Of a stretch of DNA of 64,000 nt, positions 6,901 to 55,900 are shown in pieces (position 1 is the first letter of the stretch; each line of letters starts with the position of its first letter). The stretch is from the NCBI GenBank assembly GCA_029821755.1, contig JALGSV010000001.1, forward strand, positions 124,001 to 188,000, read 5' to 3'. A program made the position numbers and the translations under genes. Origin of the DNA: Candidatus Zipacnadum vermilionense. Lineage in GTDB: Bacteria > Armatimonadota > Zipacnadia > Zipacnadales > Zipacnadaceae. The notes below the pieces were generated by a model. It was not told where the DNA came from. It made no database searches and saw only the letters and a list, made by a program, of their open reading frames with translations.

Positions 6901-7506
6901 TCCGGCGAAGAGCCGGTAGCGGGTCTCCCAGGTGCCCTGGTCGCCGAAGGTAAGCTTGCAGGTGGCCTCGGCCATGACCGGGCCGCGGGCGGTGATCTGT
7001 ATCTGCACTTGGGTGACCGGGGCCTCGGAGACCAGACGCGATCCGGCGACCCACTTACCCGAGTTGAGCATGATTCCCGCTAGTGGCCCGGTCCCGGCGG
7101 CAGGAGCCCTAGACAAGGCGATTCCGGTCTTGCCGTTGTAGAGGCGCACCATACCGTCGGCCTCTTCCACCTTCAGGTCGGTGGGGAAGCTGGCCTCGCC
7201 GGTGGCCGCGAAGGAGAACTCACGCGTGGCCAGCGGCGCCAGACTAGTCTGGAAGGCGAGCCGCGAGGCGCCTGGGGCGCCGGGGATGATCTGGTAGGTA
7301 ACAGGCTTACCGTCGGGGTCGAGGAGCGGACGCTGGGCCTGGGCCAGCTCGAGCTGCGCCGCGGTAAGCGGGAAGGTGACGTACTCATCGGTCCACTGGC
7401 GGCTCAGCTCTTCGCGCAGCGTGAAATCTGGGGCGGCCATAGCGGACAAGGTGAGGAGGGCCAGGGCGCAGATGGCAAGGCCTCGGGGCGTGCGGTTCTT
7501 CCACAT
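3937..7506 (-). CDS. secreted heparinase II/III-like polysaccharide lyase with C-terminal carbohydrate-binding module
   Basis: A protein of 1189 residues. An N-terminal signal peptide (LAICALALLTLSAMAA, cleavage near residue 25) is followed by a beta-rich domain, an alpha/alpha-barrel-like region (~400-700), then a heparinase II/III-type beta-sandwich segment around residue 755 (THNAHY-like GTNHAHYDDDSGSIVLYG). The final ~170 residues (NLFPNGDFE onward) resemble a CBM4/9-type jelly roll. The family cleaves uronate-containing polysaccharides outside the cytoplasm; this substrate is unknown. ATG 7506 has AAGGGAGAA upstream; a longer reading frame exists but lacks a signal peptide at its start. 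It converges on the GH42-like gene, so the two may serve one glycan. Confidence 0.75.
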   Translation of the reverse strand: MWKNRTPRGLAICALALLTLSAMAAPDFTLREELSRQWTDEYVTFPLTAAQLELAQAQRPLLDPDGKPVTYQIIPGAPGASRLAFQTSLAPLATREFSFAATGEASFPTDLKVEEADGMVRLYNGKTGIALSRAPAAGTGPLAGIMLNSGKWVAGSRLVSEAPVTQVQIQITARGPVMAEATCKLTFGDQGTWETRYRLFAGEPVVLIDEVCAVDTQATFSLVLSDNFAAEQLLFRYADSIATGSYGKNAVLPVTKGQLYLFEPWLRWHASNQRGNCFSVFNAREPDLLTVSACQAGVWVDPALPREQQAVAPLVVSQDDTGLHIDFPLKHGRRQWMLTALDRDASLTFLQDPELEYVSGLPYRYLIKYGHFPLDMIKDYVTRWPSQLEHPRLLLTKKDVETFKGRVADPEPYQKTAEYFLNNPTALTAFRMDDAIPAYLATEDPRLGDLLAQKALDMLQHIADYLIDQNGLPFGAAPHNHSGLSAAVGLADIIYDSPQTTPEMRDRLRALAAFLGYTTSRPEYWSPARGYAANPNMTTSVYGYQASLAAFIPDHPYAQQWVQEGMDGLKDQLDTWSDDNGGWLEAPHYAMVSYDQILAILLMAHNAGFNDWLYTDPKVKKVIQWFAKIDTPPDSRLGGFRHRPPLGNTYMNEPCGEYGLLAYLFREQDPQFSAEMQWQFNQNKQYGTAGIGGFFPAFAGYRKLLTDPDLPQQAPQYGSELFPETGLVLRDSYPSDRETYLHMIHGTNHAHYDDDSGSIVLYGKGRILADEYGYYGYVPQEDHSMVESPQAGRGLMKVRDFVTGPRFDYVAGVKEAWTRHIAFVKGADPEAPTYFLLNDAFRVNGPATWRLWLTAQEVQLGPQSALVVGKEDVDMDVFFLTPQGVALTTEPKTRTSGSGMFPDWHWGPMETTQIGLIAAEPHVGGFNVVLYPRLKTTKPATFVPLADGQGVKVTHEAGVDYVFLSGEPFIYAEGDIHFEGMAGMIQLRGDEVILSMGSGGKVSARGQTVTSDKPLPVVSTNLFPNGDFETGKLDPFPATDNEQLKVSMFRGNPVADDTAPPGKHCLALTVKQHGSAHIAAPYRVPVDSQQVYRIRVRVYADSKLTVTLGGYAPDGKGNHLQANNKTWQWALAVYGPTEGWQTYETTCGPPGSGAAVTWPPGISSTFLQCFIRGGPGTLYLDDITFEPVD

Positions 7507-9907: not shown

Positions 9908-9950
9908 TGGCCCAGCGGAGCAGAAGCGAGAACAGCAGCGCTCTGTGACC

Positions 9951-10823
9951 ATGACCACCGAAGCACCGGCACAACCTGAGGGGAAGGGGGGGGGGATCGG
10001 CGACTTACTACGCTTCTGGCAAGTCGGGCTGCTAGTGGCGCTCCTCGCCGTTGGCTTCTGGTCAGTGCTGCAGGGGCTTTACCAGCGCTGGGTCTTGGAC
10101 GAGCCCTCCGGCGGGGGCCCGCTGGTGCCAGTAGCGGCAGGGTACCTGGTCTGGCTAATGCGCGACAAGCTGGCGGCCATCCCGGCGGCGGGCGACAACC
10201 GCGGCCTGCCGGTGATGCTGCTGGGCGTGCTGGTCTTCTGGGCCGGCAAATGGACCGATATCTTCCTCCCGCAGGGCCTGGCTTTGCTCGTGGTCGGCTG
10301 GGGGATGGTGCTGTGGCTGGGCGGGGCCAGATGGGCGCGCTTACTGGCCTTTCCCTTCGGCTTTCTCTTCTTCATGCTCCCCTTGCCACTTATCGGGCCG
10401 GTCACCGTGCCCGTGCAGGTGGTCCTGACCGCCATCGCCGGCGGCCTTACCCGAGCGATGGGCATTCCCCTGGAGATCCACGGCACGCAGATCGTGATGG
10501 CGGGTCAACTGATCACCGTCGATCCGGGCTGCGCCGGGATGCGGTTCCTACTGACGCTGGTAGCGGCCGCCTTCTTCGTGGCGTACCTGACCGATACCAC
10601 GACGGCCCGGCGAGCCCTCCTGGTGGCGCTGTCGGTGCCCCTGGCACTGGTGATCAATTTGATGCGGATTGAGCTGTCCGTGCTGATGGGCAAGGCCTTC
10701 GGTCTGGCGGCGGCGCGGGGCGTGTCACATTCCGGCACCGGTATCGTGGTGTTTGCTCTCGGCGTCATCTGTCTGGCCTACATGACGAGGTGGATATGCG
10801 CAACCAAAACTGGCGATGGCTAG
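9951..10823 (+). CDS. xrt: exosortase (PEP-CTERM-specific membrane transpeptidase)
   Basis: An integral membrane protein of about 290 residues with roughly eight hydrophobic segments. Counting from GTG 9945, the putative catalytic Cys is C196 in DPGCAGMR, the conserved Arg is R241 in NLMRIELSV, and the His is H262 in SHSGTGIV; these are the three invariant exosortase residues. The usual A-C-S-G-L-R around the cysteine is here G-C-A-G-M-R, a divergent subtype. Exosortases are thought to cleave at PEP-CTERM signals and pass proteins to the cell surface. ATG 9951 is preferred over GTG 9945, but neither has a strong ribosome site. It overlaps the EpsI gene. Likely substrates are the two PEP-CTERM proteins at 54.6-55.9 kb. 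Confidence 0.88.
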   Translation: MTTEAPAQPEGKGGGIGDLLRFWQVGLLVALLAVGFWSVLQGLYQRWVLDEPSGGGPLVPVAAGYLVWLMRDKLAAIPAAGDNRGLPVMLLGVLVFWAGKWTDIFLPQGLALLVVGWGMVLWLGGARWARLLAFPFGFLFFMLPLPLIGPVTVPVQVVLTAIAGGLTRAMGIPLEIHGTQIVMAGQLITVDPGCAGMRFLLTLVAAAFFVAYLTDTTTARRALLVALSVPLALVINLMRIELSVLMGKAFGLAAARGVSHSGTGIVVFALGVICLAYMTRWICATKTGDG

Positions 10824-11428
10824 TGGCGTTCTGCCTGCCGTTGGCGATGGCGACCAGCGGCCAGTACCTGTTCGCAGTCGGGGCAACCTCGGGCGGCCAA
10901 GTCGACACGGCGGTAGTGCCGCTGCGCCTAGGGGACTGGCAGGGAACCGAAATCCCCGTATCGGCCGAGGAACTGGCGCGACTGGACCGCGATGCGGAAT
11001 TGCGGCGGCTTTACACCAACAGCGCCGGCGAGACGCTGTCCATCGCCGTGGTGTACAGCAGCAAATGGAAGGGGTTGCACTCCGCGGAAAGCTGCCTGAC
11101 CGGCGGGGGATGGGACATCGTCAAGCAGTACAAGCTCGCGCTGGGGGCAGACGACCAGGAGAGCCCGGGCACGGTACTGCTAGCCCGCGACAAGCGGGGG
11201 CAGCAGATGGTCGAGTACTACATGTTCGTCAACCGCCAGGGAGTCACCGCCGACTGGATTGAGCAGTTCCTGATGTTAATCAAGAACCGGGGCCGGGGAG
11301 ACATGGCGTGTCACTTCATCCTCACCCAAAGAGTGAGAGAGGGCAGTACCCCGGAGGCCAGTGCGGAAGCGCTCCGTAGCTTCGCCCGCGAGATGCTGCC
11401 CTACGTGCAGCGGTCGCTGGGTGCCTAA
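10796..11428 (+). CDS. epsI: EpsI family exosortase-associated protein
   Basis: A protein of 210 residues with one N-terminal membrane anchor (about residues 7-29) and an exported domain of the EpsI/DUF3485 type. The family motif H-S-x-E-x-C appears as HSAESC (95-100), followed by G-G-G-W. EpsI-type proteins occur fused to or directly after exosortases in exopolysaccharide loci; their exact biochemical role is not settled. It overlaps the exosortase gene by 28 bases and has GAGG about five bases before ATG 10796, so it is co-translated with exosortase. A GTG six bases earlier is an alternative start. Confidence 0.88.
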   Translation: MRNQNWRWLVAFCLPLAMATSGQYLFAVGATSGGQVDTAVVPLRLGDWQGTEIPVSAEELARLDRDAELRRLYTNSAGETLSIAVVYSSKWKGLHSAESCLTGGGWDIVKQYKLALGADDQESPGTVLLARDKRGQQMVEYYMFVNRQGVTADWIEQFLMLIKNRGRGDMACHFILTQRVREGSTPEASAEALRSFAREMLPYVQRSLGA

Positions 11429-11561
11429 GGCAATCCCGGCCCCCCATCCCCTACGCTCCACGAGTATCCGCAGTGGCCCGGGCAGCGCCGAGAAGTAGTT
11501 GCGGGGTACGTAGTTCCCCCGTGATTTCCTGCAGAGGGGCATAGGTATTGCGTCGAGCAGG

Positions 11562-11590
11562 TTGATATAAGCGCTCTTTCAGTCTATAAT
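11562..11590 (+). promoter_or_regulatory. strong sigma70-type promoter of the polysaccharide locus
   Basis: TTGATA (11562-11567), a 17-base spacer and a perfect TATAAT (11585-11590). Transcription would start near 11597, giving a leader of about 217 bases before the first start codon at 11814. It is the only consensus-quality promoter seen before the long plus-strand gene train. Confidence 0.78.
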
Positions 11591-11700
11591 GCAGCACAAT
11601 GGTATGAGCGTTTCGCCCGGGGGCGGGCGCAGCGTAGGCTTGTGCCGCTTACGCACCTATCAGGTGATGGTTTGGGGGAAGGCAGGCATGTGCCGCCGCG

Positions 11701-11726
11701 CCGAGCGGACCACGGATTCCGCTCGG
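11701..11726 (+). promoter_or_regulatory. hairpin in the leader of the polysaccharide operon
   Basis: CCGAGCGGA (11701-11709) pairs perfectly with TCCGCTCGG (11718-11726) across an 8-base loop. It is not followed by a T-run, so it is not a simple terminator. It may be part of a structured leader or a protein-binding site. Confidence 0.45.
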
Positions 11727-11813
11727 ACTGGCTGAACGAATCCCGGGGGGATCCTGAGGCGGATGCACCGGCAGATTCTGCCGGCACAATCGCCGGAAGA
11801 GAGGGTAGAGAGG

Positions 11814-13790
11814 ATGTCCGGGCCCGTTCTCGCACAAGATGCACCTGAACCAGGCAGCAACGGTAGCCGCCGCACCGGCGTGGGCAGGCGTTTGTACGAC
11901 CTGATCTTCTCTCTGCTTTCCCGACTGGAGAACAGGGTAGATAGGGAAGCGCACGACCTGCTCAAGGTTCTCTTTGACGTGGTCCTGATTGCGCTGGCGG
12001 CCCTGTGGAGTTGGACGGTGGTTCTGGGGCGGGAAGTCACCGCGAGCAACGCGGCGTGGTTCGTGCTGATGGACTTAGTGGCGCGCCTGCCCGTTTACCG
12101 GTTGCTGGGGATCTGGCGCTATTCGTGGAAACAAGTTTCGCCGCAGGATATACTCCAACTGGGCTTGAGCGCGGTCGCGGCCATGCCGCTCCTAGCGGCG
12201 GTGCTGTACGTTCCGGTGTACTTGGGCCGGCATTTTCTGCTTCCCGAACTAGGGCGGCCGTCGATCCTGCTGCTGACGGAGCCGGTATTCTACGTCCTGT
12301 TCCTGGGTAGCATAAGGCTGCTGGTGCGGATGTACCAGACAGCCCAGCAGGACGCGGACAGCCGCACCCCGGTCCTGGTGGTCGGCGCCGGGGCGACGGG
12401 GGCGGCCCTGGGCTACATGCTGGAGCAGCCCGGCCACGAGTACACGGTGGCGGGGTATCTGGACGACCAGCCGCGCAGCCGGGGCCGGCGGATCCGGGGC
12501 AAGCCGGTGCTGGGGTCGGTCGCCGAGGCCCGCGAGTGGGCGGCGCGAACGGGAGCGCAGGCCATCATCATCGCCACGCCCAGCCTCGGGCCGGAGCGGC
12601 TGCGCGAACTACTGGTGGTCCTGGAATCGACCGGGTTGCCCATCCGGACTGTGCCGCCGATGGAGCGGGTCCTAACCCGACAGGCGAGCATCGACGACCT
12701 GCGGGACTTGCGGATGGAGGACCTGCTGCCCCGGGAGACGGTGCATCTGGACCGGGACGCCATCTGCGGGTACCTCCGCGGCAAGACCGTGCTGGTTACC
12801 GGCGGGGGCGGATCAATCGGGAGACAGTTGTGCAAGCAGGTCATCGAGGCCGGAGCGAGCCGAGTCTTGGTCCTGGGACGCGGCGAGAACAGCGTTTTTG
12901 AGGCAGTCCTGGAGCTGCAGGAACTGGCATCCGGACGCGAGATCGTCCCGATCATCTGCTGCATTCGGGACCGGGAGGCGCTCGAGGGAGTCTTTGCGAC
13001 GCACGCGCCTCAGGTCGTGTTCCACGCGGCCGCGCATAAACATGTGCCGCTGATGGAGACGTACCCGGCCGAGGCGATCAAGAACAACGTGGTGGGGACG
13101 CTGAACCTGGTGGAATTGGCGGTGCAGTATGGGGCCGAGCGCCTCGTGCTGGTCTCGACCGACAAAGCCGTGAATCCCGTGAGTATCATGGGGGCGAGCA
13201 AGCGGGTGGCGGAGCAGATCGTGCGCGCCTACGCCGAGGAGACCGGGGCTAACATGGTGAGCGTGCGATTTGGCAACGTGCTGGGGAGCCGCGGGAGCGT
13301 CGTGCCGATCATGACCCGGCAGATCCGACGGCGGCAGCAGGTGACGATCACCGATCCGGAGATGGTGCGCTACTTCATGACCATCCCGGAGGCGGTGCAG
13401 TTGATCCTCCAGGCGGGGGCTACCGACGGGAATGGGGAAGCCTACATCCTGAAGATGGGGCATCCTGTGCGGATCATGGACTTGGCCTGCGACCTGATCC
13501 GGCTGGCGGGGCTGACGCCGAATGTCGATGTGCCACTCAAGATCATCGGCTGCCGGCCTGGAGAGAAGCTCAAGGAAGAACTGTTCACCGGCGCGGAGAA
13601 CGAGTGGGTCCAGTCAGGCGAGCATTTCTACGTCGTACCGGGCCGCTGCGTGAGTCTGGAGCACCTGCTGTTGCAGGTCGAGCAACTCCGCCAGGCGGCG
13701 GACAGGGAGGACCGCGAGACAATAGTACGGCTTCTACAGGACATGATTCCGGACTACATTCCCTCGGGGGCAGCAGTGCCGGCGAGATGA
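11814..13790 (+). CDS. CapD/FlaA1-type membrane-bound NDP-sugar 4,6-dehydratase
   Basis: A protein of 658 residues. Four hydrophobic helices (about 40-170) are followed by a CoA-binding-like Rossmann domain (VLVVGAGATG) and an extended SDR domain with TGGGGSIG near residue 330. The active-site segment reads S448-T-D-K, then M459-G-A-S-K463: Met replaces the usual Tyr, which is normal for this dehydratase family (WbpM, PglF, FlaA1). The family converts UDP-GlcNAc-type sugars to 4-keto-6-deoxy forms, the first step to bacillosamine or fucosamine-like sugars. I prefer ATG 11814, preceded by GAGAGGG, over ATG 11763. It opens the polysaccharide locus. Confidence 0.88.
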   Translation: MSGPVLAQDAPEPGSNGSRRTGVGRRLYDLIFSLLSRLENRVDREAHDLLKVLFDVVLIALAALWSWTVVLGREVTASNAAWFVLMDLVARLPVYRLLGIWRYSWKQVSPQDILQLGLSAVAAMPLLAAVLYVPVYLGRHFLLPELGRPSILLLTEPVFYVLFLGSIRLLVRMYQTAQQDADSRTPVLVVGAGATGAALGYMLEQPGHEYTVAGYLDDQPRSRGRRIRGKPVLGSVAEAREWAARTGAQAIIIATPSLGPERLRELLVVLESTGLPIRTVPPMERVLTRQASIDDLRDLRMEDLLPRETVHLDRDAICGYLRGKTVLVTGGGGSIGRQLCKQVIEAGASRVLVLGRGENSVFEAVLELQELASGREIVPIICCIRDREALEGVFATHAPQVVFHAAAHKHVPLMETYPAEAIKNNVVGTLNLVELAVQYGAERLVLVSTDKAVNPVSIMGASKRVAEQIVRAYAEETGANMVSVRFGNVLGSRGSVVPIMTRQIRRRQQVTITDPEMVRYFMTIPEAVQLILQAGATDGNGEAYILKMGHPVRIMDLACDLIRLAGLTPNVDVPLKIIGCRPGEKLKEELFTGAENEWVQSGEHFYVVPGRCVSLEHLLLQVEQLRQAADREDRETIVRLLQDMIPDYIPSGAAVPAR

Positions 13791-13846
13791 CCTGGAATGG
13801 GGGGGCTACGGTCGCCGCAGACTAACCAGGGAGGCAGCAGCAGCAA

Positions 13847-15493
13847 ATGCAGACGACCACGCGGACGTGGCTCGGCCTACTGTTCGGCATCCTCGCTATG
13901 CTGACAGTCAGCCTAGCTGCAGCAGAAACTGTCGACGACTACATCCTGGGCCCGGGTGACGAGATTGCTGTCACGGTCTTCGAGCACCCGGAGTTGAGCC
14001 TGACTCGGGTGGTTATCCGTCCGGACGGGCTGATTACCCATCCTTTCCTGGGTGCGATAAAGGTAGCTGGGCAGACGCCCACGCAATTGGCTGGGCGCCT
14101 TACCCAGGAGCTGAAGAAAGAACTCCGCGCGCCGCTGGTCACCGTGAGCGTGCTGCAGATGGCCGGAGGCATGGTCTACGTAAGAGGCGAGGTGACCGCC
14201 CCCGGGGCCTTCCCCACCCTAACTCCCCTGACCGTGGCCCGCGCTATCAACCTCGCGCTGGGCCTGACCCCCAAAGCAAGCCGCCGCGAAGCCTACATCA
14301 TCGGGCCCCAGGGCGATACCCGCAAGGTGGACCTGACGGTGGCCATGGGCGAGCGCGCCGCCGAGTTCATGCTCGTCCCCTCTGAGACCCTCGTTGTCCC
14401 TCCCGTAGAAGTGAAAGCCATTACCATCGTCGGCGAGGTCGGTAAGCCGGGCAAGTACGGATTGACCGCCCCGGACGATACGCTGCTCGACGCGCTACTG
14501 GGGTGTGGCTGGGTCACCCCGAGCGCCGACCGTCAGTACGCGTTGCTGGTGCGCGATGGGGACGAGGCGCAGCGGGTGACGATCGCTCCCCTCCTCCAGT
14601 ACCAACCGGGAGCGGTGGGCCCACACCTGGAATCGGGCGACATGCTGGTCTTCCCCAGAGCGATCAACTACGTAACGGTCTGGGGGGCCGTGGTCAAGCC
14701 AGGCAAGATCATGCTGGGCCTCGACGAGGAGAAGGTGAGCGATCTGATGGTGGCGGCTGGAGGCTTCACGGATTCCGCGAACAGGGAGACCGCGAGTCTA
14801 GTACGAGCTAACGGCGAATCGGTGACGGTTGACCTGAAGCAAGCGTTGGAGACCCCGCTGGCCGAGGCTAACCTGGCAGTGCAAGCGGGCGACACGCTGC
14901 TAGTCGCGAGCCGGCGCAACGAGGTCACCCTGGTGGGAGCAGTGGGCAACCCGGGATCGTACCCCTTTACAGATGACGAGAAGTTGCTGGACCTGCTCAC
15001 CCAAGGCGGCGGGATAGCGCGTAACGGGGACCTGGACAACGTGGCTCTGCTGCGTGCTGGCGAGCCGCCCGTGACGGTCAGCGTGAGGGGACTGTTCGAG
15101 AGCGGGGACATGACCAATAACCTGGCCCTTAGGGTCGGGGACACGGTGGTTGTCCCCGAGGTGAAGCGAGAGCTGTACGTCTTCGGGTGGGTGTTGACCC
15201 CGGGCAAGTTCGAGTTCGAGGAAGGCGATCGGCTGATAGATATCATGGCGCGCGTAGGCTATGATAAGGCTTCCGCCGCCCCCTGGAAGACAGCGTTAAT
15301 CCGCCGCAAGGGAGTCGATGTTGACGTCTACGTGGTGGACATGGAGAAGATCATCCGCGGGCAGGCCCCCGACAAGAACTACCTGATCGAGAACGGGGAT
15401 GTGATCATCGTGCCCAAGCGCACGGGCATGAACTGGCGGGAGTGGGTGCAGCAGCTGTTCTTCGTTGTCGGCGCAGTGCGGATCTTTCAGTAG
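13847..15493 (+). CDS. Wza/GumB-like polysaccharide export protein with multiple SLBB domains
   Basis: A protein of 548 residues. A signal peptide (about 1-26) precedes the Poly_export domain (YILGPGDEIAVTVFEHPELS, about 32-105). It is followed by about five SLBB repeats, each recognisable by V-x-G-x-V-x-x-P-G (VRGEVTAPGAF, IVGEVGKPGKY, VWGAVVKPGKI, LVGAVGNPGSY, VFGWVLTPGKF). There is no lipobox cysteine. The C terminus ends in a hydrophobic stretch (QQLFFVVGAVRIF) that could form the membrane-spanning helix known from Wza. Such proteins form the outer envelope channel for exported polysaccharide. It lies directly before the Wzz/BY-kinase gene, the standard partner. Confidence 0.88.
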   Translation: MQTTTRTWLGLLFGILAMLTVSLAAAETVDDYILGPGDEIAVTVFEHPELSLTRVVIRPDGLITHPFLGAIKVAGQTPTQLAGRLTQELKKELRAPLVTVSVLQMAGGMVYVRGEVTAPGAFPTLTPLTVARAINLALGLTPKASRREAYIIGPQGDTRKVDLTVAMGERAAEFMLVPSETLVVPPVEVKAITIVGEVGKPGKYGLTAPDDTLLDALLGCGWVTPSADRQYALLVRDGDEAQRVTIAPLLQYQPGAVGPHLESGDMLVFPRAINYVTVWGAVVKPGKIMLGLDEEKVSDLMVAAGGFTDSANRETASLVRANGESVTVDLKQALETPLAEANLAVQAGDTLLVASRRNEVTLVGAVGNPGSYPFTDDEKLLDLLTQGGGIARNGDLDNVALLRAGEPPVTVSVRGLFESGDMTNNLALRVGDTVVVPEVKRELYVFGWVLTPGKFEFEEGDRLIDIMARVGYDKASAAPWKTALIRRKGVDVDVYVVDMEKIIRGQAPDKNYLIENGDVIIVPKRTGMNWREWVQQLFFVVGAVRIFQ

Positions 15494-15535
15494 CGCTAGT
15501 CGCAGCTAACATCGCAGCCAGGAGGGACGCGGAAC

Positions 15536-17665
15536 GTGCTCGAGAAACGCGAACAAGAGCTTGATATACGCGACTACCTGACCATTCTGGGTAGGCGCCA
15601 GTGGCTCATCGTTCTTACGGTGGTCACTGTCGTCCTTGCGACCATCTCCTACACGCTGACCCAGCCCGATCTGTTCTCGGCCGAGTCCCGTGTGCTGCTG
15701 CGCTCCCCCTACATGCCCTACGCGGGCGAGACCGGCGGGATGATGTCTCTGGGGGTTGGCAACCTAAGCCAGACCTACGACATCGACACCGAGATTGAGC
15801 GCATAAAGAACCCGGAGTTGATCAAGGAGACGCGCGAGCGGTTGCCGGGACGGTTGCGGAATTCGCCGCTCACCCGGTTGGTGGTGCGCCAGATCGGCAA
15901 GACGGCGATTATCGGCATCACCATCGAATCGCCCAGCAATCGTTTCGCCGCCCAGATGTCGCAGGAGCTGGCGGCGGCGTACATCGAGCACACCCGTCGC
16001 ATGCGCCAAATGGCCACCGAGCAAGCGCTCAAGTACGTAACGGAACAAGCACAGCAAGCCAAGGGAGATCTGGACAAGGCCGAGCAGGAACTCAGCGCCT
16101 TCAAGCGCGCGGAGGGGATTGTGGATATTGCCTCGGCCAGCGGACGCGTGGCCACGCGGTACGAGTCCATGACGAACGCAATAGAGAAGGGGCGGAGCGA
16201 GATCCGCATTCTCAACACGCAACTGGTGGCCGTGGAGGCGCAGAGGAAGGCGATTGACCCCCGCCGGACCGCGGAGTTGACGGCTGCCTCGGACTCCAGC
16301 ATCGGGCAGATCAAGCAGCAGTTACAGCAACTGATGACGCAGCGCCTGACGCTTCTGAAGGACTACACCGAGACGAGCCGGACGGTGCGGGGGATGGACG
16401 CTCAAATCGCCAGCATGCGAGAGCAACTCCATCAAGCGTTGAGCGAGGTCTCCTACGCGGAGCTGGAGCGGGTCAACCCCGAGCTGGTGGAACTGCGCAG
16501 GCGCCGAGCCGAGCTGGAGACGGCGCGCCTTACGGCCCAGGCTAGTGTGGCCGCCGCCTCCTCCCTCCTGGCCCAGACGCAAGGGGAAATGCAGGCCTTG
16601 CCTGATAAACAGGTACGGTACGCGCAGGTCGAGCGGCAATTGAGGGTCGCCGAGAACGCCTACAATGACCTGCTCGCCCAAGCGCAGGTTCTGCGCATCC
16701 AGCAGGCCGCCGCGGTTGCCAGCGCGTTCGTCCTCACTCGGGCGGACGTGCCCAGGGAGCGGATCTCCCCCCAGCCGCAGAAGAACATGATCACCGGCAC
16801 GCTGGTGGGTCTGTTCCTGGGACTGGTCGTCGCCCTGATCGCCGACCGCCTCGACGACACCTTCCGCAATCCCAAGGAACTGGAGCGCCTGCTGAAGCTC
16901 CCGGTTCTGGGCTTGGTGCGGATGAAGGAAGAGGGGACGCCGATCATCCTGACCGACGAGGATGAGCGTTCGCCGTACGCGGAGGCCTTCCGCACCCTGC
17001 GCGCCAACATGCGCTTCAGCTCCGTGAACGGGCCGGCCCGCACGCTGCTCGTGACCAGTGCCGCGGCAGGTGAGGGCAAATCCACCTGCGTGGCCAACCT
17101 CGGCATCGAGTCGGCGCGCGCCGGGCAGCGGGTGATCATGGTGGACACGGACATGCGCCGGCCGGCCCTGCACACGTACTTCGACTTGGAGAGCGACCGA
17201 GGTGTCTCCAACGTGCTGGTGGGGGACCTGTCGCCGGAGGAGGCCCTTGTGGATACCTCGGTGCCCGGCCTGCGTCTCCTGCCGGCCGGCGCCCAGCCTC
17301 CGAATCCGGTGGTGTTGCTCGAGTCCGAGGCCATGCAGAACCTGATAGGGCGAGTCAGTGCCATGGCCGACTTGGTCATCTTCGATTCCCCCCCGGTGCT
17401 GATCGCCGCGGACTCCCAGTTGCTGGCCAGCTTTCTCGACACCACGTTTATCGTCATTGAGACGCGGAGTACTCGGCGGGAGATGGCGCAGCGAGCCCTG
17501 GAACTCCTGCGCCGGGCCAACGCTCAAGTGATAGGCATTGCCATCAACAAGGCGCGGCAGCGGGAGCAGGGGCACTACTACTACTATTACTACAACTACT
17601 ATTACTACAATGGGCACAGCAACAAGGGGAAGAACGGGCACAGCGGGGCGAACGGCAGTAAATGA
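15536..17665 (+). CDS. Wzc-like polysaccharide co-polymerase with BY-kinase domain
   Basis: A protein of 709 residues. The Wzz domain starts with a membrane helix (about 25-45), continues through a long coiled-coil (about 160-390) and ends in a second helix (about 417-437). The cytoplasmic BY-kinase domain has Walker A SAAAGEGKST (about 505-515), Walker A' VDTDMRRP and Walker B VIFDSPPVL. The tail carries a dense tyrosine cluster (ten Tyr in about 12 residues) followed by a Gly/Lys/Asn-rich end; this is the autophosphorylation region. Together with the SLBB export protein it would control chain length and export. Start is GTG 15536 with GGAGG ten bases upstream. It overlaps the next gene by ATGA. 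Confidence 0.9.
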   Translation: MLEKREQELDIRDYLTILGRRQWLIVLTVVTVVLATISYTLTQPDLFSAESRVLLRSPYMPYAGETGGMMSLGVGNLSQTYDIDTEIERIKNPELIKETRERLPGRLRNSPLTRLVVRQIGKTAIIGITIESPSNRFAAQMSQELAAAYIEHTRRMRQMATEQALKYVTEQAQQAKGDLDKAEQELSAFKRAEGIVDIASASGRVATRYESMTNAIEKGRSEIRILNTQLVAVEAQRKAIDPRRTAELTAASDSSIGQIKQQLQQLMTQRLTLLKDYTETSRTVRGMDAQIASMREQLHQALSEVSYAELERVNPELVELRRRRAELETARLTAQASVAAASSLLAQTQGEMQALPDKQVRYAQVERQLRVAENAYNDLLAQAQVLRIQQAAAVASAFVLTRADVPRERISPQPQKNMITGTLVGLFLGLVVALIADRLDDTFRNPKELERLLKLPVLGLVRMKEEGTPIILTDEDERSPYAEAFRTLRANMRFSSVNGPARTLLVTSAAAGEGKSTCVANLGIESARAGQRVIMVDTDMRRPALHTYFDLESDRGVSNVLVGDLSPEEALVDTSVPGLRLLPAGAQPPNPVVLLESEAMQNLIGRVSAMADLVIFDSPPVLIAADSQLLASFLDTTFIVIETRSTRREMAQRALELLRRANAQVIGIAINKARQREQGHYYYYYYNYYYYNGHSNKGKNGHSGANGSK

Positions 17666-18540
17666 GCGCAGAAACAGTCGTGAACGAGAATCGGGCTGAG
17701 GGGCAATACGCGGACGGCAAGCCGCGCGAAGAATGGTGCTCGCGCGACGCCCATGGTCTGATCTACCAGTTGCGCGAGATCTGGAAGTTCCGCGAGCTGA
17801 TGTGGACCCTGTCACTGCGCTCGCTCAAATCCCGCTACCGCCAGACCCTCCTCGGCGCCAGTTGGGCCATCATCCAGCCGCTGACCATGACGGTGGTCTT
17901 CACGCTGGTGTTTGGGAAGTTCGCCAAGGTGGACACCGGCGGGGCGGCCTATCCGGTGTTCGCCTACGCCGCCATGCTGCCTTGGCAACTATTCGCCAGC
18001 ATCGTCGGCCGCGGCACCGGCAGCGTGCTGGAAAACGGAGCCATTGTCAAGAAGATCTACCTCCCGCGCGAGGTCTGCCCGATGGCCTCTATACTTGTGG
18101 CGCTGGTGGACTTCGCCGTGGCCTCGCTGGCGCTGGTGATCTTTATGATCATCTACCGGGTAGCCCCCACGGTCCTGATTGTCTATCTGCCGGTGCTCCT
18201 GCTGGTCGAAGTTGTGATGGCGTTAGGGATTATCTTCTTCCTGTCCGCCACTGCCGTGTTCTACCGCGACGTCGGCTTCGGCCTGCCGCTGGTGCTGCAA
18301 CTGGGGATGTTCATCTCGCCGGTGGCGTATTCGGTCGTCACCGTGCCGGAGAGGTACTTGGGGTGGTACATGCTCAACCCCATGGCCTCCATCGTGGATG
18401 GCTTCCGGCGCATCATCGTGGACCAGCGCATGCCGCAGTGGGAATACGTGGCCTACTCGGCGGGCGTAGCGCTCCTCTTCCTGGGCCTGGGCTACTGGTA
18501 CTTCAAACGAGCGGAGGGTAGATTCGCGGACGTACTGTAG
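17662..18540 (+). CDS. wzm: ABC-2 type polysaccharide exporter permease (Wzm/TagG/RfbA-like)
   Basis: A protein of 292 residues with a cytoplasmic N-terminal ~60 residues and six membrane helices. The sequence LRSLKSRYRQTLLGASWAII is the typical entry of the Wzm/KpsM/TagG family. It forms the inner-membrane channel that flips a lipid-linked glycan, driven by the ATPase encoded at 18623. It starts within the stop of the BY-kinase gene (ATGA overlap), which couples its translation to the Wzc-like protein. This is notable because Wzc proteins usually accompany Wzx/Wzy rather than an ABC exporter. Confidence 0.9.
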   Translation: MSAETVVNENRAEGQYADGKPREEWCSRDAHGLIYQLREIWKFRELMWTLSLRSLKSRYRQTLLGASWAIIQPLTMTVVFTLVFGKFAKVDTGGAAYPVFAYAAMLPWQLFASIVGRGTGSVLENGAIVKKIYLPREVCPMASILVALVDFAVASLALVIFMIIYRVAPTVLIVYLPVLLLVEVVMALGIIFFLSATAVFYRDVGFGLPLVLQLGMFISPVAYSVVTVPERYLGWYMLNPMASIVDGFRRIIVDQRMPQWEYVAYSAGVALLFLGLGYWYFKRAEGRFADVL

Positions 18541-18546
18541 CGGTAG

Positions 18547-18593
18547 CGCAGGCTTCCCGGCCTGCGTCCGTAGCACAGGCTTTCTAGCCTGTG
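18547..18593. repeat. tandem pair of short palindromic repeats between wzm and wzt
   Basis: Two hairpins in a row: CGCAGGC (18547-18553) with GCCTGCG (18560-18566), and CACAGGCT (18574-18581) with AGCCTGTG (18586-18593). Both follow GTAGC and read as variants of one unit (GTAGC-CAGGCTT-loop-CCTG). This looks like an interspersed repeat family distinct from that at 3721. It fills the only real gap between the ABC exporter genes. Confidence 0.7.
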
Positions 18594-18622
18594 TCGCGGC
18601 GGTCCCGGCTGTGCACGGCAAC

Positions 18623-19875
<1,253 letters not shown>

Positions 19876-19879
<4 letters not shown>

Positions 19880-49904: not shown

Positions 49905-51143
49905 ATGCCTTTGACCCCCAGCCCTCCTGACGCTCAGCGGCTTCCACTCTCGCCGGAGTTCCGGACACTGATCGCCTGCGTGCGCGACGAGTCGCCGGAA
50001 TCCCTGGGTGACCACCTGTTTGCGGTCGGACCAGACGCAGGCGAACTCCTGTGTCTGGCTGGGGCCCACGGGGTTACATCTCTGCTATACTTATGCTTGG
50101 AGAGGAAGGGTCTGGCGGGGGAACTGCCCCCGGACGCCCGGGCGCGACTGGCGACAACTCATATTACCCTGGCGGCGCGGCAGACGCGCATGATCAGTGT
50201 GGCGCTGGAGATTATCCGAGCGCTGGAGCATCGCGGCCTCCGCTGTCTACCTCTGAAGGGGACCGCGCTCATCGCCGCGGCCTGGCCCACCTACCTCCCG
50301 CGGGACATGGTGGATCTCGACTTGCTGGTGGCGGCGGAGGATTGGATGGAGGCAGGAGCGATACTGGAGGGGCGGGGATTCTCGCCGCAGAGAGAGGGAG
50401 AGTTGCACTGCCCCTGGCTGGCTCATGGGCTTCCCCTGTTGCGCGACGGGATGATGCTCGAGCCGCACACCGCCCCCTGGGGCCACAACCCGATGGAGCC
50501 TCCCTTCCGCCCGAGCTGCGACCAGCTCTGGGCGCGGGCCCGGTCGGGAGCGCTATTGGACCAGCCCGTTCCCGTCCCCTCCCCCGAGGACATGGTGCTC
50601 ATCCTCCTGACCGGCCTGGCGCGCGATCGGTTCTCCAGCTTGCTGCGCTCCTGGGCGGACCTGCGCTGGCTCCTGTCGCCCGAGGGCGGCGGCGCGGACA
50701 CCGCGGTGCTCTGGGAGCGGGCGGCGGCTCTGCATGCCGGCAAACTCCTGGCGATATGTCTGCGGTTCGCCGGGGAGCTGCTGGGGGATGTCTTACCTGT
50801 GGTGCCGGAGTGCCTAGACATGGACTCCGCCTACGGGCGCGTGAGGCCGATCCTATGGCGGCGGCTGCTCATGGCTGAGAGCCTTCCCCGGGTGCCGCGG
50901 TCAGCCTTGCGGGTACTCGCCGGCGGGCGGGGTGTGGCGACTGAGGTGGGGGAAGCGGGGTGGGCCTGGGCGGCCGAGGCCGGGGGGCTGCCGGCTCGGG
51001 CGGGGCGCTTGGGCGCTTGGGCAGGGCTGGTCGGCGGAGGCTTGGTCTATGCGGGACGCCTGGCCGTCTCGCGCCGAGCCCGCCAGGCGCTTCGCGAGGA
51101 GGCGTACCTCTTACGAGCGGTACGAGAGCGGGAAGCAGCCTAG
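49905..51143 (+). CDS. NTP_transf_5-type nucleotidyltransferase family protein
   Basis: A protein of 412 residues. The block ALEHRGLRCLPLKGTALIAAA followed by YLPRDMVDLDLLVAAED is the signature of the PF14907-type family, with D-x-D-x-x-V as the metal motif of the nucleotidyltransferase fold. The remaining two thirds are helical. Such proteins occur beside PqqD, HprK-like kinase and exosortase/polysaccharide genes, and a related nucleotidyltransferase occurs with an HprK-like kinase in some lasso-peptide clusters. It faces the RiPP-like operon tail-to-tail, so it is a candidate but not a proven member of that system. Target is unknown. Confidence 0.78.
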   Translation: MPLTPSPPDAQRLPLSPEFRTLIACVRDESPESLGDHLFAVGPDAGELLCLAGAHGVTSLLYLCLERKGLAGELPPDARARLATTHITLAARQTRMISVALEIIRALEHRGLRCLPLKGTALIAAAWPTYLPRDMVDLDLLVAAEDWMEAGAILEGRGFSPQREGELHCPWLAHGLPLLRDGMMLEPHTAPWGHNPMEPPFRPSCDQLWARARSGALLDQPVPVPSPEDMVLILLTGLARDRFSSLLRSWADLRWLLSPEGGGADTAVLWERAAALHAGKLLAICLRFAGELLGDVLPVVPECLDMDSAYGRVRPILWRRLLMAESLPRVPRSALRVLAGGRGVATEVGEAGWAWAAEAGGLPARAGRLGAWAGLVGGGLVYAGRLAVSRRARQALREEAYLLRAVREREAA

Positions 51144-51246: not shown

Positions 51247-51741
51247 CTATCCCCGCAGTGCTCGCGGTGGCCCGCCCAGCGTGCAGCGGCGTCGCGTTCG
51301 TGGGTGGCGCAGGCGAATCAGGCCGGGAATCAGCAGCGCCAGCCGTCGGCGTAGCAGGGCCAGTCGGAAGCGGCTGACGAGCGCCTCGCGGCTCACCTCA
51401 CCGTCACCTGACTTGACCGACTCCACCCGGCCCAGGACGCTTCCCATCGGCACCGGCAGATCCGGCCACGGAATCGCATCTCCCCACGTCTGCACCCGCC
51501 GTTGTTCCCCAGCGCCCGACACCCGCACGACCCGGTGGCACACCGGATAGCCGTCGGAGGTCACGAAGAGCACGATGTCCCCGGGGCGCAGGTCGTCCGG
51601 ATCCAGCTTCCGCAGGACTACCAGGTCGCCATCCTCGACGGTAGGACGCATGCTCTTCCCCCGCATGCGGGTCTCGCAGGCCCGGCCCCGGCCCAGCAGA
51701 TCGGAAATAACCTCGCGGTAGTCGGAGGGGGAGAGCTTCAT
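51247..51741 (-). CDS. S24/S26-type serine peptidase without membrane anchor
   Basis: A protein of 164 residues. GKSMRPTVEDGDLVVL places the nucleophile S30 in the S-M-x-P box of signal peptidases, DGYPVCHRVVRV gives H69 as general base as in the ER/SipW type, and TWGDA supplies a late Asp. Bacterial type I signal peptidases use Lys and have an N-terminal membrane helix; this protein has neither, so it is probably soluble or peripherally bound through its basic C-terminal helix. It is last in the minus-strand operon and overlaps the kinase gene by ATGA. It could remove the leader of the precursor peptide encoded at 52599-52751; that is inference. Confidence 0.8.
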   Translation of the reverse strand: MKLSPSDYREVISDLLGRGRACETRMRGKSMRPTVEDGDLVVLRKLDPDDLRPGDIVLFVTSDGYPVCHRVVRVSGAGEQRRVQTWGDAIPWPDLPVPMGSVLGRVESVKSGDGEVSREALVSRFRLALLRRRLALLIPGLIRLRHPRTRRRCTLGGPPRALRG

Positions 51742-52595
51742 AGGACCTCACGGAGTCGCTCGACGGCTGACTGATCGGGCATAAAGCCAAAGTCATAGAC
51801 AGGCACAGTGCGTGCGGTGCGGTCCAGGAGTTCAACAGTGGGTGGAATCGTGGCCGGGTCCCAGGTGAAGAACCGGGTATTCTCCAGCAACCGCTGCCCG
51901 GCCTCCGCAGGGGTCAGCCGAGACAGTTTGTGGGCAGGAGCATGGCGAAGGAAGAAAACAGCATCCAGGGGACCGGAGAGATCGCAGGGGGGACCCAAGA
52001 GGCCATTCCAGGGCGTGCCATGTGCCCAGGCGCGGTCCTCGTGCCAGGTCAAAACCGGGTACTCCTCGGTAAGACATGTTCCTCCGGCATCGGCCACCAG
52101 CCGCCCCAGGGTGCTCTTGCCGACGCCCTTGTCGCCGAGCAGCATGACAAAGCGGCCGTCCACAAAACACACGGCTCCATGCAGCAAGGCCCCGCCGTGG
52201 TGCGCCAGATAGCCCCAGAGGGGCAGATATAGCCAGGCCAGTCCCCTTTCGTTGCCAGTCCTCTTTGTCTCGGCGGCGCGCCGAAGCATCAGGCAGCAGG
52301 CCGAAAAATCGGGAGCAGCACGAAGCAAGGCCCAGCCGTGATCCATCTGAAACACGTCCGGGGAACTTTCAACCAAAGGGGCAACGGGTGACGCACCGCG
52401 ACCGGGAGGCGGACCATCGTGCTCTCCCGGGGGCAATACTTCGAGGTCAAGGTCGGGTGCCTGAGAACGACAATCACTAACACGGTAGGGGAGGAGGCGC
52501 GAGTCCGGGCCACGTTCGTCATCCCTCACGCGGGCCCGGATGTTGGCTCCAGCGACATGCAGGCGAAGCAGATTGTCGACGCGAGGGCAATTCAC
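51738..52595 (-). CDS. HPr kinase-like protein of a RiPP operon
   Basis: A protein of 285 residues. The N-terminal ~80 residues match the small beta domain of HprK-related kinases. HHGGALLHGAVC precedes the Walker A loop GDKGVGKST (154-162), and CLTEEYPVL stands where HprK has its acidic metal site. Relatives are found with PqqD/radical SAM genes, and one, in the paeninodin lasso peptide cluster, phosphorylates a peptide Ser. The precursor next door has four Ser in its core. Translation begins at GTG 52595, three bases after the precursor stop, with no ribosome site of its own, so it is coupled to it. It overlaps the peptidase gene downstream. Confidence 0.8.
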   Translation of the reverse strand: MNCPRVDNLLRLHVAGANIRARVRDDERGPDSRLLPYRVSDCRSQAPDLDLEVLPPGEHDGPPPGRGASPVAPLVESSPDVFQMDHGWALLRAAPDFSACCLMLRRAAETKRTGNERGLAWLYLPLWGYLAHHGGALLHGAVCFVDGRFVMLLGDKGVGKSTLGRLVADAGGTCLTEEYPVLTWHEDRAWAHGTPWNGLLGPPCDLSGPLDAVFFLRHAPAHKLSRLTPAEAGQRLLENTRFFTWDPATIPPTVELLDRTARTVPVYDFGFMPDQSAVERLREVL

Positions 52596-52598
52596 CAG

Positions 52599-52751
52599 CT
52601 AGACACATACGCCGCTATAGCTACACGGCCTGAACGACCGACACCCGAAGGCGGCGAGGAAGATACCACAATCACTTCGGCACGCGGTGAGCACATCGGT
52701 ATCCGCCTCTAAGATGACTTCCCTTACTTCCGGCTTGATCCATTTGTTCAT
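52599..52751 (-). CDS. candidate Cys-rich RiPP precursor peptide
   Basis: A 50-residue peptide read on the minus strand from ATG 52751 to TAG 52599. The first ~23 residues form a leader with W4, K6, P7, E8, V9 and an E/D-rich stretch, recalling the W-x-K-P-x-x start of PqqA and other PqqD-bound precursors. The last 27 residues hold five cysteines (24, 28, 37, 43, 49), four serines (26, 39, 44, 46) and a Tyr at 45, with three Arg. It is preceded by an excellent GGAGGAGG at nine bases, lies 36 bases after the radical SAM gene and three bases before the kinase gene. Gene order, signal and composition all indicate the substrate of the operon. It has not been matched to a known class. Confidence 0.8.
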   Translation of the reverse strand: MNKWIKPEVREVILEADTDVLTACRSDCGIFLAAFGCRSFRPCSYSGVCV

Positions 52752-52760
52752 TGTGCCTGA

Positions 52761-52768
52761 CCTCCTCC
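52761..52768 (-). promoter_or_regulatory. strong ribosome-binding site of the precursor peptide gene
   Basis: GGAGGAGG on the minus strand, nine bases before ATG 52751. It is the strongest site in the operon; the other genes rely on overlap or weak sites, so the peptide is likely to be made in excess over the enzymes. Confidence 0.75.
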
Positions 52769-54535: not shown

Positions 54536-54579
54536 AGCTGCGCATTGGACCGCATATCGTTAGTTGAGGGGGGATGACG

Positions 54580-55167
54580 ATGTCATCTAGACTTCGCCTC
54601 GGTCTCGGATTGGTCCTACTGCTCGTAGTGGCGTGCGCCACCACCGCCTTCTCCGATAACGTCGTCTACATCGGCGAGACTCCGAGTAGTGGCATGGCCG
54701 GTTGGGGCGGGAGCTACGGCGGGTACTCAGGCCTCGATTACAGTGATTCACTGTGGGACTATGTCTACACCGTCGAAACCTGGGGGGGGCTTGGTGCCGC
54801 GCTCTTCGGCGTCCAGGTTCACTCCGATAACCTGAGTGACATTTGGGTCGTCTGGACTGGCGGTGACGACTGGCAGGGCGCCATCACCTACGATCCTGCT
54901 TTCGACTTTGGGGGGCTTCTTCCCCACCTGGGTGACAGTGTCGCCGTCGCTTGGTGGAGAAATGGGCCAGCACCGCCTGAGAGCATCATATTCGGATTCC
55001 AGAGCTCCCTCGGTCCGGAACTCCGCCCGTTTGATCTGGTTGGTAACGAAGAGGCGCTAGACACAGGCGACGTCTATTCGACCAGTCCCGAGCCGGGCAC
55101 ACTAGCGCTGGCCTCGATGTTGCTCCTGGGGGCGGGGGTTTGGCGTCGGCGGCGCCGCCGTCGGTAA
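54580..55167 (+). CDS. PEP-CTERM sorting-signal protein
   Basis: A protein of 195 residues. A signal peptide (about 1-26, ending TTAFSD) leads an exported beta-rich domain. The C terminus has P-E-P at about 170-172, a hydrophobic helix (TLALASMLLLGAGVW) and a run of seven Arg: a full PEP-CTERM signal for the exosortase encoded at 9951. It shares the pattern V-Y-x-G-E-x-P near the N terminus and S/T-L-W-D-Y-V-Y in the middle with the next gene product, so they are paralogues. The function of the exported domain is unknown. ATG 54580 is preferred over ATG 54574 because GAGGGGGG is then at proper spacing. Confidence 0.87.
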   Translation: MSSRLRLGLGLVLLLVVACATTAFSDNVVYIGETPSSGMAGWGGSYGGYSGLDYSDSLWDYVYTVETWGGLGAALFGVQVHSDNLSDIWVVWTGGDDWQGAITYDPAFDFGGLLPHLGDSVAVAWWRNGPAPPESIIFGFQSSLGPELRPFDLVGNEEALDTGDVYSTSPEPGTLALASMLLLGAGVWRRRRRRR

Positions 55168-55230
55168 ACGCGAGAACGGCCCGCTCGCCCGAAGTTTTCG
55201 CCGCAAAGCAGGTTATTCCGTCACAGATGT

Positions 55231-55238
55231 GGTATACT
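55231..55238 (+). promoter_or_regulatory. extended -10 promoter of the second PEP-CTERM gene
   Basis: TATACT (55233-55238) is preceded by TGG, forming an extended -10. The region where a -35 would lie (about 55211-55218) is AT-rich but poor. It is about 80 bases before ATG 55316. Confidence 0.45.
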
Positions 55239-55315
55239 ATTCGTGTGGGGAGCGATTGGGATCACCTTCTGGGTTCCGCGTAGCTCTAGTTCCTCACTCT
55301 GGGGGGGTATCCGTT

Positions 55316-55900
55316 ATGTTTCTCAGCAGATCCTCAACCGCCGTTAGAGGTCTCCTGGTAGTAGCCCTCGTCTGTCTGACCATCGGCTACGCTGCTGCCG
55401 ATTCCCTGGTCTACCAGGGCGAAGCTCCCGTGGGATCTGGGTATCCTAACGAGGGTATTTCCTCCTACACCGGGTCGAACGCCAGTGGCACTCTCTGGGA
55501 CTATGTGTACGACATTAGCGGCTGGACTACCGGCCCTTCTTCGGTGCAGCAGTGGGGGATAGAGGTGCTTACACCCATCGCGTCGGGTAAGATATGGTCA
55601 CCTGCAGAATGGACTGCCACGTATTACCCCGTGGTGCCCAGCGACATGGGCGGATTCGACACTCTCTGGGGGAAGATGGCCGTCATCTGGGTTGCCGGTA
55701 TTAATGCGCAAGTGGCCGAGGGATTCCATTTCCAGAGCGGGCTCCCTCCGGTGAAGCTGGCCTACGACTCTGACAGGTCAGCCTTCCTCGGCGATGAGTG
55801 GTCGGCCTCCATACCGGAACCCTCGACACTTCTCCTGGCGAGTGCGTTGCTGCTCAGCGCCGGAATCGCGAGAAGGCGGCGAAAACATGCGAAGAGCTGA
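55316..55900 (+). CDS. PEP-CTERM sorting-signal protein, paralogue
   Basis: A protein of 194 residues with a signal peptide (about 1-28, ending YAAAD), an exported domain and the C-terminal P-E-P (167-169), hydrophobic helix ([16 protein letters not shown]) and RRRRK tail. The mature start [12 protein letters not shown] and the block [12 protein letters not shown] align with the preceding paralogue. ATG 55316 is used because the upstream open frame has no signal peptide in register and crosses the promoter. Its 3' end overlaps the prepilin-like gene by 14 bases. Confidence 0.87.

Follow-up and report, generated by a model that had tools for sequence, protein, structure and literature searches.

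The cassette and its surroundings

The window analyzed here is a stretch of 64,000 nucleotides from Candidatus Zipacnadum vermilionense (contig JALGSV010000001.1). It carries a small cassette with genes for a PqqD-type recognition protein, a radical SAM enzyme, a precursor peptide, an HprK-like kinase and an archaeal-type signal peptidase, together with an NTP_transf_5 protein (Table 1). The three nearest clusters, one from the same genus (G290) and two from the same order (G259 and G265), were compared with it and show the same gene order, and the PqqD gene adjoins the radical SAM gene in close relatives. Of 27 members of the radical SAM family, 25 retain the cluster cysteines and two are gapped at these positions, while in the signal peptidase family H69 is present in all 26 members and S30 in 25 of the 26.

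Table 1. Positions, strands and supporting evidence for the features of the cassette, in window numbering
Feature	Position	Strand	Basis
NTP_transf_5 protein, 412 aa, convergent with the cassette	49905..51143	+	PF14907, 141.7 bits; same place in G290
Archaeal-type signal peptidase I-like protein, 164 aa	51247..51741	-	TIGR02228, 66.4 bits (cut-off 51.85); overlaps kinase gene by 4 nt
HprK-like kinase, 285 aa, GTG start	51738..52595	-	Profile of relatives and Foldseek list
Glu177-Glu178, where tested kinases have Asp-Asp	52062..52067	-	Kinase alignment
Walker A GDKGVGKST, residues 154-162, with K160	52110..52136	-	K160 in 50 of 52 aligned rows, the other two gapped
Junction TAG-CTG-GTG (stop, one codon, kinase start, same frame)	52593..52601	-	Sequence
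Precursor peptide, 50 aa, ATG start	52599..52751	-	ORF; homologous leaders in the same place in G290, G259 and G265
Leader motif WIKPEV, fitting [Y/W]xxPx[L/V/I/A/F/Y]	52725..52742	-	W4 and P7 invariant in four of four close precursors
Shine-Dalgarno run of the precursor, GGAGGAGG, strong	52761..52768	-	Sequence
Radical SAM/SPASM enzyme, 373 aa, CX3CX2C at C35, C39 and C42	52788..53909	-	Pfam PF04055, 82 bits; SPASM weak
PqqD-family protein (discrete RiPP recognition element), 125 aa	53902..54279	-	Pfam PF05402, 55 bits (cut-off 23.4)

The cassette sits in a large exopolysaccharide region, on the strand opposite to the EpsH/EpsI genes; positions 9945-19879 of the window encode the exosortase EpsH, EpsI, XrtA-type export and chain-length proteins and a Wzm/Wzt-like ABC pair. 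We also noticed two proteins adjoining the cassette (54574-55167 and 55229-55900) whose ends, one of them reading PEPGTLALAS..., resemble what we take to be PEP-CTERM sorting signals; no family match was found for the first of the two. The exopolysaccharide setting was dropped as a defining trait, since no such locus was seen among the flank proteins scanned in G265 (five) and G259 (two), where the cassette is kept.

The precursor peptide and its junction with the kinase gene

The precursor contains five cysteines (24, 28, 37, 43 and 49), and its core has serines at 26, 39, 44 and 46, as given in an earlier note on this DNA. It ends in GVCV, with Val as the last residue; the corresponding residue is Cys in the G290 precursor and Pro in that of G259. 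Its leader carries a motif of the [Y/W]xxPx[L/V/I/A/F/Y] type, which is reported to be bound by discrete recognition elements (PMC13381572). The four closest precursors have W-x-x-P, E15, D-V-L and Cys24 in common and differ in their cores. In their alignment none of the four serines is conserved throughout, and a conserved acceptor Ser was therefore dropped as a candidate, there being no core Ser common to all four.

On the minus strand, the precursor stop TAG (52601-52599) is followed by a single CTG codon and then by the kinase GTG, which begins at 52595. The start thus lies three bases past the stop with the two frames in register, and no Shine-Dalgarno-like run was found in the sequence before it. 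This is the arrangement from which the earlier note had proposed translational coupling of the two genes, and it was confirmed in every detail. The coupling itself is less secure: closeness and the missing ribosome site speak for it, but the closeness is not conserved, with precursor-kinase gaps of 161 nt in G290, 256 nt in G259 and 37 nt in G265. Tight spacing is moreover ordinary in the window, because, counting ORFs of at least 100 aa (which leaves out the precursor-kinase pair itself), 11 of its 31 pairs of neighboring ORFs on the same strand are separated by at most 10 nt. The missing ribosome site is weak evidence as well, since the G290 kinase start, 161 nt away from its precursor, is also without a Shine-Dalgarno run. 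Coupling of precursor and kinase as a conserved feature was ruled out, as the gap differs across all four clusters compared. What all four clusters keep is the 4-nt overlap between the kinase and peptidase genes, so that the conserved trait would be the coupling of kinase and peptidase, and the closeness of precursor and kinase a local one.

The register of the two frames, only one codon apart, raises the further idea that read-through of the TAG joins precursor and kinase in one fusion protein, which would be cleaved afterwards. We consider this extremely improbable, because none of the three nearest clusters has the frames in register, and the radical SAM and peptidase genes here also end in TAG as an ordinary stop. 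With the register confined to the window, the fusion was set aside.

Family and active site of the kinase

The sequence similarity of the kinase to known families is low. Pfam Hpr_kinase_C gives 10.5 bits, under its cut-off of 33.3, and the best NCBIfam match is ScmC with 21.4 bits against a curated cut-off of 125; no curated cut-off is reached. A profile built from ten relatives matches the Lactobacillus casei HprK (PDB: 1jb1) with an E value of 2.9e-5, spanning the Walker A loop and the acidic pair. A Foldseek search with the predicted kinase model returned HprK/P chains as all of its top 25 hits, with PEP carboxykinases next. The model is of low confidence (mean pLDDT 48.7, built from three sequences) and, as residues 1-125 score below 50, it is roughly residues 135-240 that carry the fold result. 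Given the profile match and the fold list, HprK-like, the label used in the earlier note, seems a fair one for this protein, weak by sequence and clearer by the predicted fold.

A close examination of the active site agrees with the earlier assignment of K160 as the Walker A lysine. In an alignment of 52 kinase rows, H139 and K160 are kept in all 50 rows that are readable there. The acidic pair is more variable (DE in 26 rows, DD in 21, ED in two, EE, SD and a gap in one each). Of the 51 readable rows, 27 have Glu at the second position, and only the window kinase has it at both. Judged by this alignment, the putative active site of the window kinase is the odd one out among its relatives.

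This brings in the main rival to a working peptide kinase, namely that the Glu-Glu pair has abolished or greatly reduced phosphotransfer. The protein would then persist for binding, as a scaffold or as a relic, and the modification that matters in the cassette would be the one made by the radical SAM enzyme. Besides the uniqueness of the pair, the absence of a C-terminal Ser from the precursor speaks for it, and alanine changes at the Asp pair of the lasso-cluster kinase BsfK are reported to diminish activity or solubility (PMC10368454). However, the kinase ORF is intact, with the Walker A loop and H139 kept, its gene overlaps the peptidase gene as in the relatives, and a change from Asp to Glu is conservative, the second position being Glu in more than half of the readable rows. 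We regard a lost or greatly reduced activity as unlikely.

Precursors of related loci

Twenty-four precursors were collected by a motif search around the loci and then chosen by eye from larger lists, one of which held 95 candidate ORFs. Those kept have Y/W-xx-P near the start, a ribosome site, a small size and a position beside a kinase or radical SAM gene; the ribosome site of the G257 precursor (GGGG) fits a looser rule only, and the G124 precursor starts with TTG. The loci with kinase and radical SAM genes that yielded no precursor (L040, L046, L047, L063, L067, L073 and the second kinase of L049) lie outside the counts.

At least two cysteines are present in all 19 precursors adjacent to a radical SAM gene versus one of the five others (Fisher p 0.0005). 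The precursor that breaks the rule is that of G257 (L044/L084), which has two cysteines and no adjacent radical SAM gene; pieces of such a gene are found on other contigs. Because the cysteines track the adjacent gene in this way, the counts support, without proving, that Cys would be the substrate of the radical SAM enzyme. From the enzyme class and this tracking we infer putative thioether crosslinks in the core, as the earlier note had suggested.

A C-terminal Ser is found in 14 of the 24 precursors versus 6.1% of 344 background ORFs and, after near relatives are collapsed, in seven of 17 kinase-linked precursors (p 3.6e-5). It occurs at eight of nine loci with an Asp-Asp kinase versus one of ten with another pair (Fisher p 0.001), or 12 of 13 versus one of ten when four loci with the precursor elsewhere in the genome are added. 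Both the excess of C-terminal Ser and its link with Asp-Asp were noticed after looking at the data, and the kinase tree contains only one or two independent Asp-Asp/Ser contrasts on supported branches, a number with which a sign test cannot reach significance. Since the link is post hoc and involves very few independent changes, we take it as a lead only, much of which kinship explains.

This contrast is repeated inside one genome, G256, which has two kinase loci, L037/L085 around 1833-2881 and L038 around 5735-7164. One of them has an Asp-Asp kinase, a radical SAM gene and a Cys-containing precursor that ends in Ser; the other has Asp-Glu, no radical SAM gene and a Cys-free precursor that ends in Lys.

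Comparison with known systems

Among published systems, the nearest is the family of linear polyphosphorylated peptides (LPP, lppAKBSDN; PMC13381572). It is described as having a signal peptidase (LppS), a recognition element (LppB), an HprK-like kinase (LppK) and an NTP transferase (LppN) as well as an exporter, and polysaccharide genes are often close by. LppK is reported to phosphorylate Ser3 of the core and LppS to remove the leader, with unphosphorylated precursor cut poorly by the peptidase. The window cassette resembles this set in its archaeal-type signal peptidase, discrete recognition element, HprK-like kinase and NTP transferase, and also in its [Y/W]xxPx leader and polysaccharide-locus setting. 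It differs in having a radical SAM enzyme and a Cys-rich core, as the main text of the LPP paper has no radical SAM enzyme. The LPP product is linear and made without a ring-forming enzyme; the radical SAM enzyme of the window cassette may form a ring. No MsbA-like transporter, another LPP feature, was found among the cassette proteins and scanned neighbors; the ABC proteins at 17662-19879 are Wzm/Wzt-like. The LPP precursor motif YxxPxVLxHQxIxFETxxS is represented in the window precursor by the WxxPxV part only, with HQxIxFETxxS absent.

Clusters for paeninodin-type lasso peptides (PadeK, ThcoK, PsmK/PsmN; PMC9266682) likewise combine an HprK-like kinase with a nucleotidyltransferase-like protein and a W-type leader. 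PadeK is reported to act on the C-terminal Ser of its precursor (PMC9266682), and many relatives of the window cassette have such a Ser, but the window precursor ends in Val. BsfK, from another lasso cluster, is reported to phosphorylate core Ser3 and to need His, Lys and the Asp-Asp pair (PMC10368454); against this His-Lys-Asp-Asp motif, the window kinase has H139, K160, E177 and E178. No match to a macrolactam cyclase or B2 peptidase was found among the six cassette proteins. The paeninodin-like phosphorylation of Ser proposed earlier is therefore upheld in part. In its favor are the radical SAM RiPP cassette, the Cys-rich precursor and the published lasso and LPP kinases that phosphorylate a precursor Ser, and against it are the C-terminal site of PadeK, Glu-Glu in place of Asp-Asp and the lack of conservation of any Ser that had been named.

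The SynChlorMet system is similar in that, among the NCBIfam models, the kinase scores best against its ScmC, and that two radical SAM/SPASM proteins and a PqqD-related one are also modeled for it; however, the scores for ScmC, ScmD, ScmE and ScmF are all far under the curated cut-offs (21.4/125, 16.4/100, 61.5/400 and 73.9/400 bits, respectively). The HPr-rel-A models fall short in the same way (kinase TIGR04352, 13.3 of 200 bits; PqqD-like TIGR04353, 20.8 of 35 bits), and in the comparison with sactipeptides and ranthipeptides the StsA model gives 16.1 of 42 bits. Filing the cassette as LPP, paeninodin lasso, SynChlorMet or HPr-rel-A was rejected, since each misses at least one tested feature. 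Its parts are individually known, and the gene set matches the published LPP set plus a radical SAM enzyme. The cassette would bring together, with a single recognition protein, modification by a radical SAM enzyme and phosphorylation of the HprK type, a pairing not found in the literature searched (which included few subscription papers); the one paper that came up names an HPr kinase only in lasso clusters.

Proposed function

The best reading of the gene, which we hold with modest confidence, is that it encodes an HprK-like peptide kinase of a radical SAM RiPP cassette. It is favored by the co-occurrence of the cassette genes, the kept gene order and overlap, the HprK match, H139 and K160, the precedents of LppK and BsfK and the excess of C-terminal Ser. 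The Glu-Glu pair, the absence of a C-terminal Ser and of a conserved core Ser in the window, and the weak similarity to HprK stand against it. Phosphorylation of the window precursor by this kinase is plausible but unproven.

From the genes and their family matches, the conserved leader and cassette, and the cysteines that go with an adjacent radical SAM gene, we infer every chemical step as follows. The PqqD-type protein would bind the WxxPxV leader, and the radical SAM/SPASM enzyme would modify the Cys-rich core, probably by forming crosslinks from Cys. The kinase would phosphorylate a core hydroxyl with the leader still attached, the archaeal-type signal peptidase would then remove the leader, and the NTP_transf_5 protein may decorate the phosphate. 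The acceptor in many relatives is probably the C-terminal Ser. The window precursor has Val at this place, so that the role would have to fall to an internal Ser (26, 39, 44 or 46) or a Thr.

If this is real, the cassette offers a test of the order of the modifications and of what the phosphate is for, because the LPP peptidase is reported to cut unphosphorylated precursor poorly (PMC13381572). A wider proposal, which we put forward as a tentative and on balance unlikely one, is a RiPP class of Armatimonadota in which enzymes of the LPP and paeninodin type also phosphorylate, and may afterwards glycosylate, a peptide crosslinked by a radical SAM enzyme, and in which the acidic pair marks the acceptor: Asp-Asp would go with the C-terminal Ser, and Asp-Glu and Glu-Glu (including the window) with a different, internal residue. 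If the acidic pair and the last residue are linked in this way, the acceptor site could be predicted simply throughout the phylum.

Distribution in Armatimonadota

Across 291 Armatimonadota genomes, 47 have kinase matches. With a threshold of E 1e-25, the radical SAM enzyme was found in 33, and 32 of these also have a kinase match (Fisher p 5e-30, uncorrected for kinship). A set of 49 stretches was made up of the window and 48 stretches around kinase matches, so that all but the window were picked for holding one. Within this set the kinase is accompanied by the radical SAM enzyme in 21 stretches, by PqqD in 27, by the peptidase in 26 and by the nucleotidyltransferase in 20, and all five enzyme families are together in 13. 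In 15 stretches the kinase has none of the four partner families beside it, and one gave no profile match. A scan of genome contigs gave two loci only, both already in the set, and a plasmid scan found no locus.

The cassettes of G028, G029 and G030, which comprise precursor, PqqD, radical SAM and peptidase genes without an internal kinase, speak against the reading as a peptide kinase of the cassette, as do the 15 stretches with a kinase alone. These 15 would also fit a rival reading in which the target of the kinase is not the precursor but, for instance, a sugar, a lipid carrier or a protein of the exosortase/exopolysaccharide locus, with the precursor a mere operon neighbor. The place of the cassette within the EpsH/EpsI region speaks for this as well, but G265 and G259 keep the cassette with no such locus among their flank proteins scanned (five and two, respectively), and the published relatives are reported to act on peptides (PMC13381572, PMC10368454, PMC9266682). 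We consider another substrate quite unlikely and retain the assignment as a peptide kinase.

The precursors of G028, G029 and G030 are near-identical (L121 at 4975, L122 at 4957 and L123 at 4621), and the kinase of each genome is found on another contig. In genus g116, a solitary kinase relative with LSDEL and GTPFWG occurs in ten genomes (L041, L042, L052, L055-L058, L062, L064 and L077); in eight of the ten genomes the radical SAM gene is located on another contig, and the three of these radical SAM stretches that were read have no cassette partners.
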